Assembly (NCBI GenBank): GCA_029241985.1
Contig: JAQWUU010000055.1
Span: 1-47,538 of the forward strand
DNA from: Aquiluna sp.
GTDB taxonomy: Bacteria; Actinomycetota; Actinomycetes; Actinomycetales; Microbacteriaceae
Reading direction: 5' to 3'
Length of the DNA: 47,538 bases
Positions within the stretch are counted from its first letter, which is position 1, and each line of letters starts with the position of its first letter. Of this stretch, positions 1,058 through 18,903 are shown in pieces. Made by a program: the position numbers and the translations under genes. Below the pieces are notes generated by a model. It was not told where the DNA came from. It ran no database searches and saw nothing but the letters and a program-made list of their open reading frames with translations.

Positions 1058-1386
1058 AGCAGCTTTCTAATTCGTGTGGCTTTTATCTTGTCACAAGTTG
1101 GCTAAAGAATGACAAACGCGAACTCAGCGGCAAAATAATAATTATTTAATATCTTTAATAATCCTTAATAACCATCTGTGGATAAGTGGATAACTCGATG
1201 TTCTCCTTTTATTACTTACTAACTACAACGGTGTAACTTGTACACAGCCTTGTGGATAAGTCTGTGGACAACCGCAGGGCCTGTGTAATTAGATAAGAGC
1301 TATTTCTGGTTTCCAGTAGTTATTAGCTGTTTGTTGCTTAGTTTTAGGGGTATTTCGAGAGAGTTATCCACAGGTTTTATTGAAAA
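1058..1386. other. oriC: Chromosomal replication origin (oriC), dnaA-dnaN intergenic region
   Basis: The 329-bp gap between dnaA and dnaN has no gene but has origin structure. Perfect DnaA boxes (TTATCCACA or TTGTCCACA) lie at 1177-1185 (minus), 1251-1259 (minus), 1263-1271 (minus) and 1364-1372 (plus). One-mismatch boxes lie at 1185-1193 (minus) and 1238-1246 (plus). An almost pure A/T block at about 1132-1171, rich in TTAATA/TTTAATA, is the likely unwinding element and sits next to the first box on the dnaN side. This position is the usual one for actinobacterial origins. Function is inferred from position and motifs. Confidence 0.9.
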
Positions 1387-2804: not shown

Positions 2805-2867
2805 TTATCCACAGAGTTTTACACAGAAACTGCTGCCTGTGGAAAAACATTGAACCCCTGTGGAAAA
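2805..2867. promoter_or_regulatory. DnaA boxes upstream of dnaA (probable autoregulation)
   Basis: A perfect box TTATCCACA is at 2805-2813, and two TGTGGAAAA boxes (one mismatch, opposite strand) are at 2838-2846 and 2859-2867, all just upstream of the dnaA start. They fit DnaA control of its own gene, or an extension of the origin. The rest of the 315-bp dnaA-rpmH gap (2776-3090) holds the rpmH promoter at 3011-3039 and an AT-rich stretch around 2957-2995. I see no convincing small gene in it. Confidence 0.75.
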
Positions 2868-16536: not shown

Positions 16537-16791
16537 ATGGCAGGAAAGTCAGCTGACCGCCGCAAGCAGATGAACTCAAAGTTCGCCAAGCTTCCGCCGG
16601 CAAAGACCATCAAAATCGAAGTTATCGACTATAAAGACGTCGCTACTCTTCGCAAATTCGTAACCGACCGCGGCAAGATCCGTGCTCGTCGTATCACCGG
16701 TGCAACGGTGCAGGACCAGCGCAAGATTGCTACGGCTATCAAGAACGCACGCGAGATGGCGATCATGCCATACTCCGGCTCTGGACGCTAA
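16537..16791 (+). CDS. rpsR: 30S ribosomal protein S18
   Basis: An 84-residue basic protein with [27 protein letters not shown], characteristic of S18. It has no cysteines, so it is the zinc-independent form; metal-binding S18 proteins carry a cysteine pair near the N terminus. S18 binds beside S6 on the 30S platform. CTAGGAG precedes the ATG. The gene lies 22 bases after ssb and 11 before rplI. Confidence 0.97.
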
Positions 16792-16802
16792 GGGAGATTC
16801 AC

Positions 16803-17255
16803 ATGTCGAAACTAATTTTGACCAATGAGGTCCAAGGGCTCGGGTCCGCTGGCGACGTCGTTGAGGTAAAGGACGGTTACGCACGTAACTTTCTAGTACC
16901 AAACGGCCTAGCAGTTAGCTGGAGCCGCGGCGGCGAGAAGCAGATCACTCAGATCCGCTCAGCTCGCGATGCACGCGCCATTGCAACTGAAGAAGAAGCA
17001 CTGGCCATCAAGTCAAAGCTCGAGGATGTTGTCGTAAAGATCAGCACCAAGGCTGGAGCAAACGGTCGTCTCTTTGGAGCGGTCAAGACCTCCGACCTAG
17101 CCGAAGCCATCAAGGCACTCGGCTTTGGCGAGGTTGACAAGCGCAAGATCCAGTTCGGTTCAGCAATCAGAACCACCGGTGACTACGAGGCGAGTGTTCG
17201 TTTGAACTCCGACCTAGTTGCACAGGTAAAGATTCAGGTTGTTGCTGCTAAATAA
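16803..17255 (+). CDS. rplI: 50S ribosomal protein L9
   Basis: A 150-residue protein: the N-terminal domain has [25 protein letters not shown], the L9 signature, followed by a long helix and a C-terminal RNA-binding domain. It is the last gene of rpsF-ssb-rpsR-rplI and is followed by a strong intrinsic terminator at 17271-17302. GGGAG lies upstream of the ATG. Confidence 0.97.
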
Positions 17256-17270
17256 GTAGGTTTCAACCAA

Positions 17271-17302
17271 GAACAACCCGCACTTTTTAGTGCGGGTTGT
17301 TC
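17271..17302 (+). terminator. Intrinsic terminator after rplI
   Basis: GAACAACCCGCAC (17271-17283) is exactly complementary to GTGCGGGTTGTTC (17290-17302), giving a 13-bp stem (14 with the inner T-A pair) around a T-rich loop. It is followed by tctgttt, only a weak U tract. It separates the ribosomal operon from the DnaA-box region and dnaB, so dnaB probably has its own promoter. Confidence 0.85.
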
Positions 17303-17317
17303 TCTGTTTGGGGGAAG

Positions 17318-17482
17318 TTCTCCACAACCCTTAGGTTCAAGTTTAGGGTTTGTTAATAAACTTTTATCCACAGGTAAAATCCAGCTAATTACTGCCCTCT
17401 GGGCGTGCAGAAAAAAGTTATCCACAAGTTATCCACAGAGTTACACAGAGTTTGTCGGCGTGTTTACACAGGGTTATCCACA
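17318..17482 (+). promoter_or_regulatory. Cluster of four perfect DnaA boxes upstream of dnaB
   Basis: The 304-bp gap between rplI and dnaB holds four exact TTATCCACA boxes at 17364-17372, 17418-17426, 17429-17437 and 17474-17482, plus a one-mismatch box at 17318-17326, all in the same orientation. Two are spaced 11 bp apart, one helical turn. AT-rich sequence (tttgttaataaac) precedes the first. Weaker tta/ttt-cacaca-like sequences lie between. This is as many perfect boxes as oriC itself holds. It may let DnaA regulate dnaB or titrate DnaA. Confidence 0.85.
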
Positions 17483-17527
17483 GACAGGCGGAGACTGATT
17501 TGTAAGCAAAGTGTCTCTGCCCCAAGC

Positions 17528-17534
17528 TATACAT
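17528..17534 (+). promoter_or_regulatory. Putative -10 element for dnaB
   Basis: TATACAT lies 26 bases before the preferred dnaB ATG. I see no good -35 at normal spacing (TTGTAA at 17500-17505 is too far), which would suit an activator-dependent promoter; the nearest DnaA box ends 45 bp upstream. Weak evidence. Confidence 0.35.
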
Positions 17535-17559
17535 GGCTTATCTAGTTTTGGAGGAATTT

Positions 17560-18903
17560 ATGTCGATGTTGGCACCGGTCCAGGCATCTGACCCACGGGT
17601 CGCTCCACACAACCTTGAGGCCGAACAGTCGACTCTCGGCGGCATGCTGCTGAGCCAAGAAGCTGTCGCAGAGGTCGTCGAAGAGGTTACTGGCCTCGAT
17701 TTCTATGCCGGCAAACACGAGCTAATTTTCAACTCCATCGTCACTCTTTTTGGGCGCGGTGAACCTACAGACGTTATCGCCGTCACGGATGAGCTAAATA
17801 AGAACGGCAATCTTCTGAAAGCTGGGGGCTCGGACTACTTGCACTCACTTGCAAGCTATGTGCCAACCGCTGCAAATGCCGGCTACTACGCAAAAATTGT
17901 CGGCGACAAGGCAATCTTGAGACGGCTCATTGATGCCGGTACCAGAATTGCTCAATCTGGCTATGACAGTCAGGGTGAGGTCGAGGATCTAGTCAACCAG
18001 GCTCAAGCAGAGGTTTATCAGGTTGCCAGTCAATCCTCGAAGGAAGACTATGTCGGGCTGAGCGAATCCCTTGAGGCCGCCATTCATGAGATCGAGGTGG
18101 CCCAGAACCGCGGTGGCGAAATGACCGGCATTTCAACCGGGTTCACAGACTTAGACACCTACACGCACGGGCTTCACCCAGGCCAGTTGATAATTGTCGC
18201 CGCTCGTCCAGCGGTGGGTAAGTCAACATTTGCCTTGGACATCGCCAGAAACGCAGCCGTGAAGCAGAACAAGGCGACAATCTTCTTCTCTCTTGAAATG
18301 GGCAGGGCTGAAATCGCCATGCGAATGCTGAGCGCGGAAAGCTCCATTTACCTTCAGAGCATGCGTAAGGGAACAATCTCCGAGGGAGATTGGACCAAGC
18401 TTGCTGCGGTCAGAGGCAAAATCAACGACGCACCGCTTTATATCGATGACAGCCCAAACATGTCCCTGGTAGAGATTCGAGCCAAGTGCAGGCGCTTAGC
18501 TCAGCAGGTGGATCTAAAGATGGTCGTAATTGACTACATCCAGCTCATGTCCAGCGGAAAAAAGGTTGAATCTCGTCAGCAGGAGGTCTCTGAGTTCTCA
18601 AGAGCACTGAAGCTATTGGCAAAAGAGCTTCGTATCCCGGTTGTTGCTCTTTCTCAGCTCAACCGTCAGGCGGAGCAGGCCAAGGATAAAAAACCCGAGC
18701 TTTCACACCTGCGTGAATCTGGATCTTTGGAGCAGGATGCAGACGTTGTAGTGCTTCTTCACCGCGAAGGAATCTATGAACGAGACCACCCTCGTGCAGG
18801 AGAAGCGGACTTGATTCTTGCAAAGCAGCGAAACGGACCTACCGGCACAGTGGTTGTTGCCTTCCATGGTCAGTACTCGCGCTTCGTGAATATGCCAAGC
18901 TAG
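17560..18903 (+). CDS. dnaB: Replicative DNA helicase DnaB
   Basis: A 447-residue hexameric helicase that unwinds DNA at the fork and is loaded by DnaA at the origin. It has an N-terminal primase-interacting domain (PHNLEAEQSTLGGMLLS) and a RecA-type core with Walker A ARPAVGKST at 215-223, MVVIDYIQLMS and LHREGIYERD. No intein interrupts it. ATG 17560 is chosen over ATG 17533 because GGAGG lies five bases upstream and the earlier ATG overlaps a possible -10. The promoter region is packed with DnaA boxes. Confidence 0.97.
   Translation: MSMLAPVQASDPRVAPHNLEAEQSTLGGMLLSQEAVAEVVEEVTGLDFYAGKHELIFNSIVTLFGRGEPTDVIAVTDELNKNGNLLKAGGSDYLHSLASYVPTAANAGYYAKIVGDKAILRRLIDAGTRIAQSGYDSQGEVEDLVNQAQAEVYQVASQSSKEDYVGLSESLEAAIHEIEVAQNRGGEMTGISTGFTDLDTYTHGLHPGQLIIVAARPAVGKSTFALDIARNAAVKQNKATIFFSLEMGRAEIAMRMLSAESSIYLQSMRKGTISEGDWTKLAAVRGKINDAPLYIDDSPNMSLVEIRAKCRRLAQQVDLKMVVIDYIQLMSSGKKVESRQQEVSEFSRALKLLAKELRIPVVALSQLNRQAEQAKDKKPELSHLRESGSLEQDADVVVLLHREGIYERDHPRAGEADLILAKQRNGPTGTVVVAFHGQYSRFVNMPS

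Follow-up and report, generated by a model that had tools for sequence, protein, structure and literature searches.

What does a cluster of DnaA boxes do directly in front of dnaB? Such a cluster stands in the window, by which we mean the whole stretch of 47,538 nucleotides of Aquiluna sp. DNA that was analysed, and an earlier note on this DNA had offered three possible roles for it, namely DnaA control of dnaB expression, a DnaA-titrating site like datA of E. coli or an accessory origin. The genome assembly comprises 1.31 Mb in 55 contigs and is 90.5% complete. The rplI-dnaB gap extends from 17256 to 17559, with rplI ending at 17255. The list of open reading frames puts the dnaB start earlier, at ATG 17533; this ATG was missing from the alignment in several relatives (e.g., L005, L006, and L008), and we took ATG 17560, which is preceded by GGAGG, as the start. 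The features of the locus, with two groups of boxes near dnaA for comparison, are the following.

17270..17303, + strand: inverted repeat after rplI with perfect 14-bp arms and a 6-nt loop (by eye)
17318-17326, + strand: DnaA box 1, TTCTCCACA, one mismatch (pattern scan; at the same place in relatives, many with TTATCCACA)
17326..17351, + strand: conserved non-box element AACCCTTAGGTTCAAGTTTAGGGTTT (alignment of relatives)
17364-17372, + strand: DnaA box 2, TTATCCACA, exact (pattern scan, relatives)
17418-17426, + strand: DnaA box 3, TTATCCACA, exact (pattern scan, relatives)
17429-17437, + strand: DnaA box 4, TTATCCACA, exact, starting 11 bp past the start of box 3 (pattern scan, relatives)
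17456..17462, + strand: conserved CGGCGTG element (family count of CGGCGTK)
17462..17470, + strand: degenerate box GTTTACACA, with GTTTCCACA at this site in most Aquiluna-type relatives (alignment)
17474-17482, + strand: DnaA box 5, TTATCCACA, exact, promoter-proximal (pattern scan, relatives)
17512..17533, + strand: probable dnaB promoter TGTCTC-N10-TATACA, three mismatches to the PafBC/RecA-NDp-type motif TGTCRG-N10-TANNNT (alignment)
17550..17554, + strand: ribosome-binding site GGAGG before ATG 17560 (sequence)
17560..18903, + strand: dnaB, replicative DNA helicase, 447 aa (PF03796 and PF00772)
1177..1372, no strand assigned: for comparison, oriC boxes in the dnaA-dnaN gap, three exact (1177, 1251, 1364) and two with one mismatch (pattern scan)
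2805..2867, no strand assigned: for comparison, dnaA promoter boxes, one exact (2805) and two TTTTCCACA (pattern scan)

The pattern scan confirmed the four exact boxes and one single-mismatch box that had been reported in one orientation, two of them 11 bp apart; the start-to-start distances of the five boxes are 46, 54, 11, and 45 bp, and the array spans 17318-17482. In the window, there were 19 matches with at most one mismatch compared with 7.3 expected, and none of 100 shuffles reached 19. The whole genome holds 16 exact boxes, compared with 10 for the reversed pattern, and these are divided among the dnaB gap (4), the dnaA-dnaN gap (3), the dnaA promoter (1), and other contigs (8). The claim that the dnaB gap equals the oriC gap in perfect boxes stands if the dnaA promoter is counted with the latter (3 + 1) and falls for the dnaA-dnaN gap alone (3). 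AT-rich sequence is present near the boxes as described, the GC content of the gap being 43% against 51.5% for the whole window, with a minimum of 28% over 50 bp from 17331, one of five such places in the window; the minimum in the oriC gap is lower, at 18%. The inverted repeat at 17270-17303 is probably the intrinsic terminator of rplI that the earlier note had placed here, with perfect arms and a weak T-run behind them, and near relatives have a comparable repeat with altered arms in the alignment. An Rfam search of 16700-18000 returned nine matches, all of them below the gathering score and on the terminator repeat, and an RNA element was rejected.

The same gap was compared in close relatives. 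A dnaB scan yielded 23 loci, mostly from Aquiluna and Rhodoluna-type genomes. We labeled 21 of them (L001-L019, L022, and L023) as Aquiluna/Rhodoluna-type from DnaB identities of 73-93% and record names, left L021 (Treponema) out of the counts and counted L020 (Propionibacteriaceae, three boxes) separately. Within 400 bp ahead of dnaB, all 21 carried at least three boxes with at most one mismatch, and these boxes were nearly all forward; no exact box was found elsewhere in these loci, which cover up to 11 kb each. The presence of boxes in close relatives, which had been named as a check, is therefore borne out. In Aquiluna-type loci, the boxes recur at near-constant positions relative to the start codon (about -241, -196, -152, -142, -131, -121, -87, and -77), with each locus having a subset of them, while the distances in the Rhodoluna-type loci (L016-L019) deviate from this set. 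An additional box with at most one mismatch follows directly after box 5 in 16 of the 17 Aquiluna-type relatives, L005 being the exception; this most promoter-proximal box is absent from the window in the alignment.

The earlier note had also named many equally dense clusters elsewhere in the genome as a sign against its reading. Among 22 same-genus genomes, we found 44 exact tandem pairs (gap of at most 30 bp) in 19 genomes, compared with 0 for the reversed control. All 30 pairs that were fetched lie at dnaB (26) or at oriC, between dnaA and dnaN (4), which speaks against such clusters. Among the remaining 14 pairs, 12 adjoin fetched ones or sit about 15-16 kb away, and the last two (G305, contig C28) share just the 66-bp spacing.

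To extend the comparison, we counted loose boxes, defined as having at most one mismatch to TTATCCACA or TTGTCCACA, and strict boxes in a 600-bp segment upstream of the dnaB match, with expected counts from dinucleotide shuffles of these segments. From the named loci and general taxonomy, we take the sampled family to be Microbacteriaceae and the class to be Actinomycetes. The family sample held 58 of 60 genomes (G012 and G022 left out), including the window as L024, and the class sample held 81 of 113 matched genomes, one further genome being that of the window itself; many of the unsampled class loci were intein-split, fragmentary or at contig ends, and no strict selection rule was applied. 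The rest of the phylum was represented by 60 of 101 matched genomes. Three family genomes (L054, L055, and L057) were tallied with the class in these counts. The family had 217 boxes upstream of dnaB versus 9.9 expected (22-fold), and the class sample had 257 versus 14.6 (18-fold), counts that are not independent since the sampled genomes are kin. For strict boxes, the numbers were 79 versus 0.1 and 73 versus 0.8, respectively. At least one strict box was present in 47 of 58 family genomes and 48 of 81 class-sample genomes, and was missing upstream of dnaB in the other 11 and 33; at least three boxes were present in 44 and 53. In the 54 loci that were long enough, the upstream 600 bp contained 74 strict and 199 loose boxes (at most one mismatch), while each of five equal control segments from the same loci contained 0 strict and 2, 2, 2, 5, and 6 loose boxes. 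Outside the class, the 60 genomes had 11 strict boxes versus 0.3 expected, with any strict box in only 7, and 47 loose boxes versus 5.5; as this signal is patchy, the array is mainly a class feature. Two marks of a DnaA-regulated promoter were found, namely a cluster of consensus boxes beyond chance and boxes kept in orthologous promoters. The boxes before dnaB are shared by relatives, family, and class, indicating that the array is not a local oddity.

The arrangement of the boxes was also conserved. Counted over the comparison, 400 boxes were forward and 74 reverse. Forward boxes no more than 140 bp apart were spaced at multiples of about 11 bp, or one helical turn, with best periods of 11.1 bp in the family (R 0.73) and 10.8 bp in the class (R 0.70). 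The random 99% limits for R were 0.17 and 0.21, respectively, from a control that takes no account of kinship, and the R values are not readable as probabilities because the genomes are related. The spacing vectors themselves were diverse, with 54 distinct among 61 in the family and 48 among 78 in the class. A box followed after 3-12 nt by TTG-N19..22-TANNNT was present in 44 of 61 family genomes, compared with 2.1 expected; the first three entries of the list, namely the window (L024), L025, and L026, lack this arrangement. A box just upstream of a -35-like element would suit a DnaA oligomer that contacts RNA polymerase. In other class genomes, a forward box with the same element occurred in 1 of 78 (1.0 expected), and a box in either direction with TTG or TTT occurred in 16 of 78 (1.2 expected).

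Further, the array was bound to dnaB. A tblastn search of the 1 kb preceding dnaB did not detect rplI in 51 of 77 class genomes, which had a mean of 3.16 boxes per 600 bp compared with 2.85 in those with rplI; in the family set, into which L056 of the same order was filed for this comparison, it was not detected next to dnaB in 10 of 62 genomes, with 4.50 boxes compared with 3.73. In G001, dnaB lies about 453 kb from dnaA on one contig, yet three strict boxes stand upstream of dnaB. As the boxes persist without nearby rplI and at 453 kb from dnaA, the array follows the start of dnaB, and neither rplI nor a fixed distance to dnaA.

A second signal, of the DNA-damage type, lies between the boxes and dnaB. 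TGTCRG-N10-TANNNT is the motif given for PafBC in M. tuberculosis (PMC8151990). Allowing at most one mismatch, it occurred nearer dnaB than the boxes in 47 of 60 gaps of the family, where 3.1 were expected. The other gaps of the class sample had it in 50 of 78 cases (2.8 expected), the named loci, with the window counted, in 10 of 22 (1.6 expected), and genomes outside the class in 9 of 60 (1.5 expected); a few of the listed matches sit away from the usual place. The match counted for the window is a separate, chance-like site and not 17512-17533. The probable promoter of the window resembles the PafBC/RecA-NDp promoters (PMC8151990, PMC6789036) in having a TGTCRG-N10-TANNNT-like motif and differs from them in its degenerate copy, TGTCTC-N10-TATACA. 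The nearest relatives of the window have TGTCAC in place of TGTCTC in the alignment, a variant permitted for the PafBC motif (PMC8151990).

A PafBC promoter calls for pafB and pafC in the genome. Contig C29 carries two adjacent WYL genes, one of which has HTH_PafC, while the other matches transcriptional-regulator chains and the PafBC chain 6sj9 (E 1.2e-18), so that the pair resembles both. In the same genome, the looser pattern TTGTCRGTG-N8-TANNNT with two mismatches gave 162 matches, none exact among the matches listed, and this count is uninformative because it equals that of the reversed control (162). An SOS-box-like site stood instead of or beside the PafBC motif in 12 of 78 class, 1 of 60 family, and 6 of 60 outside-class gaps; in L136, L138, L142, and L161, the SOS-box-like CGAACATNTGTTCG lies between the DnaA boxes and dnaB. 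In M. tuberculosis, dnaB is overexpressed with mitomycin C in a partially PafBC-dependent manner and has a putative SOS box upstream (PMC8151990). The PafBC-type motif, or an SOS-type one in some lineages, suggests that the dnaB promoter may also be responsive to DNA damage.

The claim that no standard description of such a site is known at this locus in Microbacteriaceae needed to be qualified. The region upstream of dnaB is one of five highly enriched DnaA regions described for M. tuberculosis in vitro, with homologous regions in M. smegmatis by ChIP-seq, and the M. tuberculosis variant DnaA I282T binds more weakly upstream of dnaB, which is under-expressed (PMC7738170). The likeness to our locus is a DnaA site upstream of dnaB that is linked to dnaB expression; the parts of that paper used here place the region at Rv0057 without describing a box array, phasing or promoter layout, whereas the Aquiluna array is known from sequence and comparison. 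In Caulobacter crescentus, DnaA boxes were likewise predicted upstream of dnaB, here in another phylum, and dnaB belongs to the DnaA regulon with dnaA-dependent expression (PMC8203912, citing Hottes et al. 2005). With these two precedents, DnaA control of dnaB is already a known kind. What we did not find in the open-access literature, most subscription papers being outside the scope, was a phased class-wide array or its pairing with damage-type promoters.

On this evidence, the conserved and phased boxes, mostly in a single orientation and next to promoter-like elements in most family genomes, probably form a site from which bound DnaA would control the dnaB promoter and set the supply of helicase around the start of replication. 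DnaA molecules on boxes of one orientation would sit along a single face of the helix and cooperate, the resulting oligomer would act on RNA polymerase at the downstream dnaB promoter, and either how much DnaA is present or which nucleotide it carries could in this way determine the amount of helicase around replication start. Control of dnaB expression is the one of the three proposed roles that drew support, from an array that is conserved, kept without rplI and, in most family genomes, upstream of promoter-like elements, and from the binding described in Mycobacterium (PMC7738170). The window departs from the family pattern in lacking the most promoter-proximal box and in its degenerate PafBC-type motif. 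As for the direction of control, DnaA might mainly repress, turning dnaB off at high DnaA-ATP. Several promoters are repressed by DnaA (PMC8203912), and a reverse box (at most one mismatch) lies inside the promoter-like spacer in L029, L031, and L048, which would suit repression. However, no box with at most one mismatch overlaps 17512-17533 in the window, and the Mycobacterium mutant with weaker DnaA binding under-expresses dnaB (PMC7738170). We regard a mainly repressing DnaA as rather unlikely, and by analogy with the lower dnaB expression of that mutant, activation is more likely than repression.

The two other roles explain the dense boxes without invoking the dnaB promoter. Dense DnaA boxes outside oriC are known as datA in E. 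coli and as oriC-proximal clusters in B. subtilis, and a datA-like titration site by definition works independently of a neighboring promoter. The boxes before dnaB could absorb DnaA after early replication and delay re-initiation, with any effect on dnaB being incidental. Their location would be suitable, since an array 16 kb from oriC is doubled early, and dnaB lies some tens of kb from dnaA in many genomes with both on one contig (by eye). Yet the array stays at dnaB where rplI was not detected nearby and persists in G001, at about 453 kb from dnaA; and, in contrast to datA and the B. subtilis clusters, the Aquiluna cluster is bound to one gene start and helically phased, while neither the phasing nor the frequent alignment to promoter-like elements is needed by titration alone. 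By this indirect evidence, the link to the dnaB start makes titration less likely as the main role, and we consider it improbable.

An accessory origin or helicase-loading site, at which DnaA would unwind DNA and load DnaB beside its own gene, could draw on the four exact boxes, compared with three in the dnaA-dnaN gap, and on the AT-rich stretch from 17331 (28% GC over 50 bp). The tandem boxes are also like those of the basal unwinding system of oriC, which consists of DnaA-boxes and DnaA-trios (PMC8287927). However, no DnaA-trio run of at least three was found within 16 bp after any of the five boxes, by a simple rule that makes this a weak test because it barely flags the oriC of the same genome. 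The least stable 80 bp of the dnaB gap were milder than those of the oriC gap. Moreover, two motifs of the dnaB gap, CGGCGT and GGTCAG, had no fixed place in 30 family dnaA/oriC loci (by eye, without computed expectation), and a shared oriC element was rejected. We consider an accessory origin very unlikely. Neither datA-like titration nor an accessory origin gained support from an array that tracks the start of dnaB rather than rplI or the distance to dnaA.

Taking DnaA control of dnaB together with the damage-type motifs, we tentatively propose, as a possibility to be taken seriously, that the region upstream of dnaB is an ancient composite switch of Actinomycetes, in which a phased platform for a DnaA oligomer is combined with a DNA-damage promoter, mostly PafBC-type and in some genomes SOS-box-type, so that one promoter would read both initiation and fork damage and set the helicase supply. 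The array looks like an old switch, common to many actinobacteria, by which the supply of helicase is coupled to the start of replication and perhaps also to DNA damage. In a concrete and testable way, it links DnaA as initiator to the supply of the helicase that DnaA loads, and the damage-type motifs suggest that this supply may also respond to fork trouble. Antibiotic producers and bacteria abundant in fresh water belong to the class in which the array is widely shared, and the conserved phasing provides a ready design to probe a DnaA oligomer as a transcription factor.

Other observations concern single genomes and smaller elements. No box whatever was found in the 600 bp upstream of dnaB in L110 (G015), L063, and L147, and the first of these is a family genome reduced to 0.9 Mb. 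CGGCGTK occurred in 53 of 60 family gaps versus 10.0 expected, and in 26 of 78 other class-sample gaps versus 17.2, which is weak. The element [GC]CWGGTCAG was present upstream of dnaB in 19 of 60 family gaps (1.0 expected) and 25 of 78 class gaps (2.0 expected), for example in L061, L123, and L149, and in 0 of 60 gaps outside the class. The element beginning with AACCCTTAGG was conserved in dnaB gaps; its reading as an inverted repeat with TTTAGGGTT was rejected, as the arms showed no consistent covariation by eye in the alignment of relatives. CGGCGTG is also present between dnaA and rpmH in the window, at 2937-2945, as TCGGCGTGT, and the dnaA promoter boxes at 2805-2867 are perhaps candidate sites of DnaA autoregulation.
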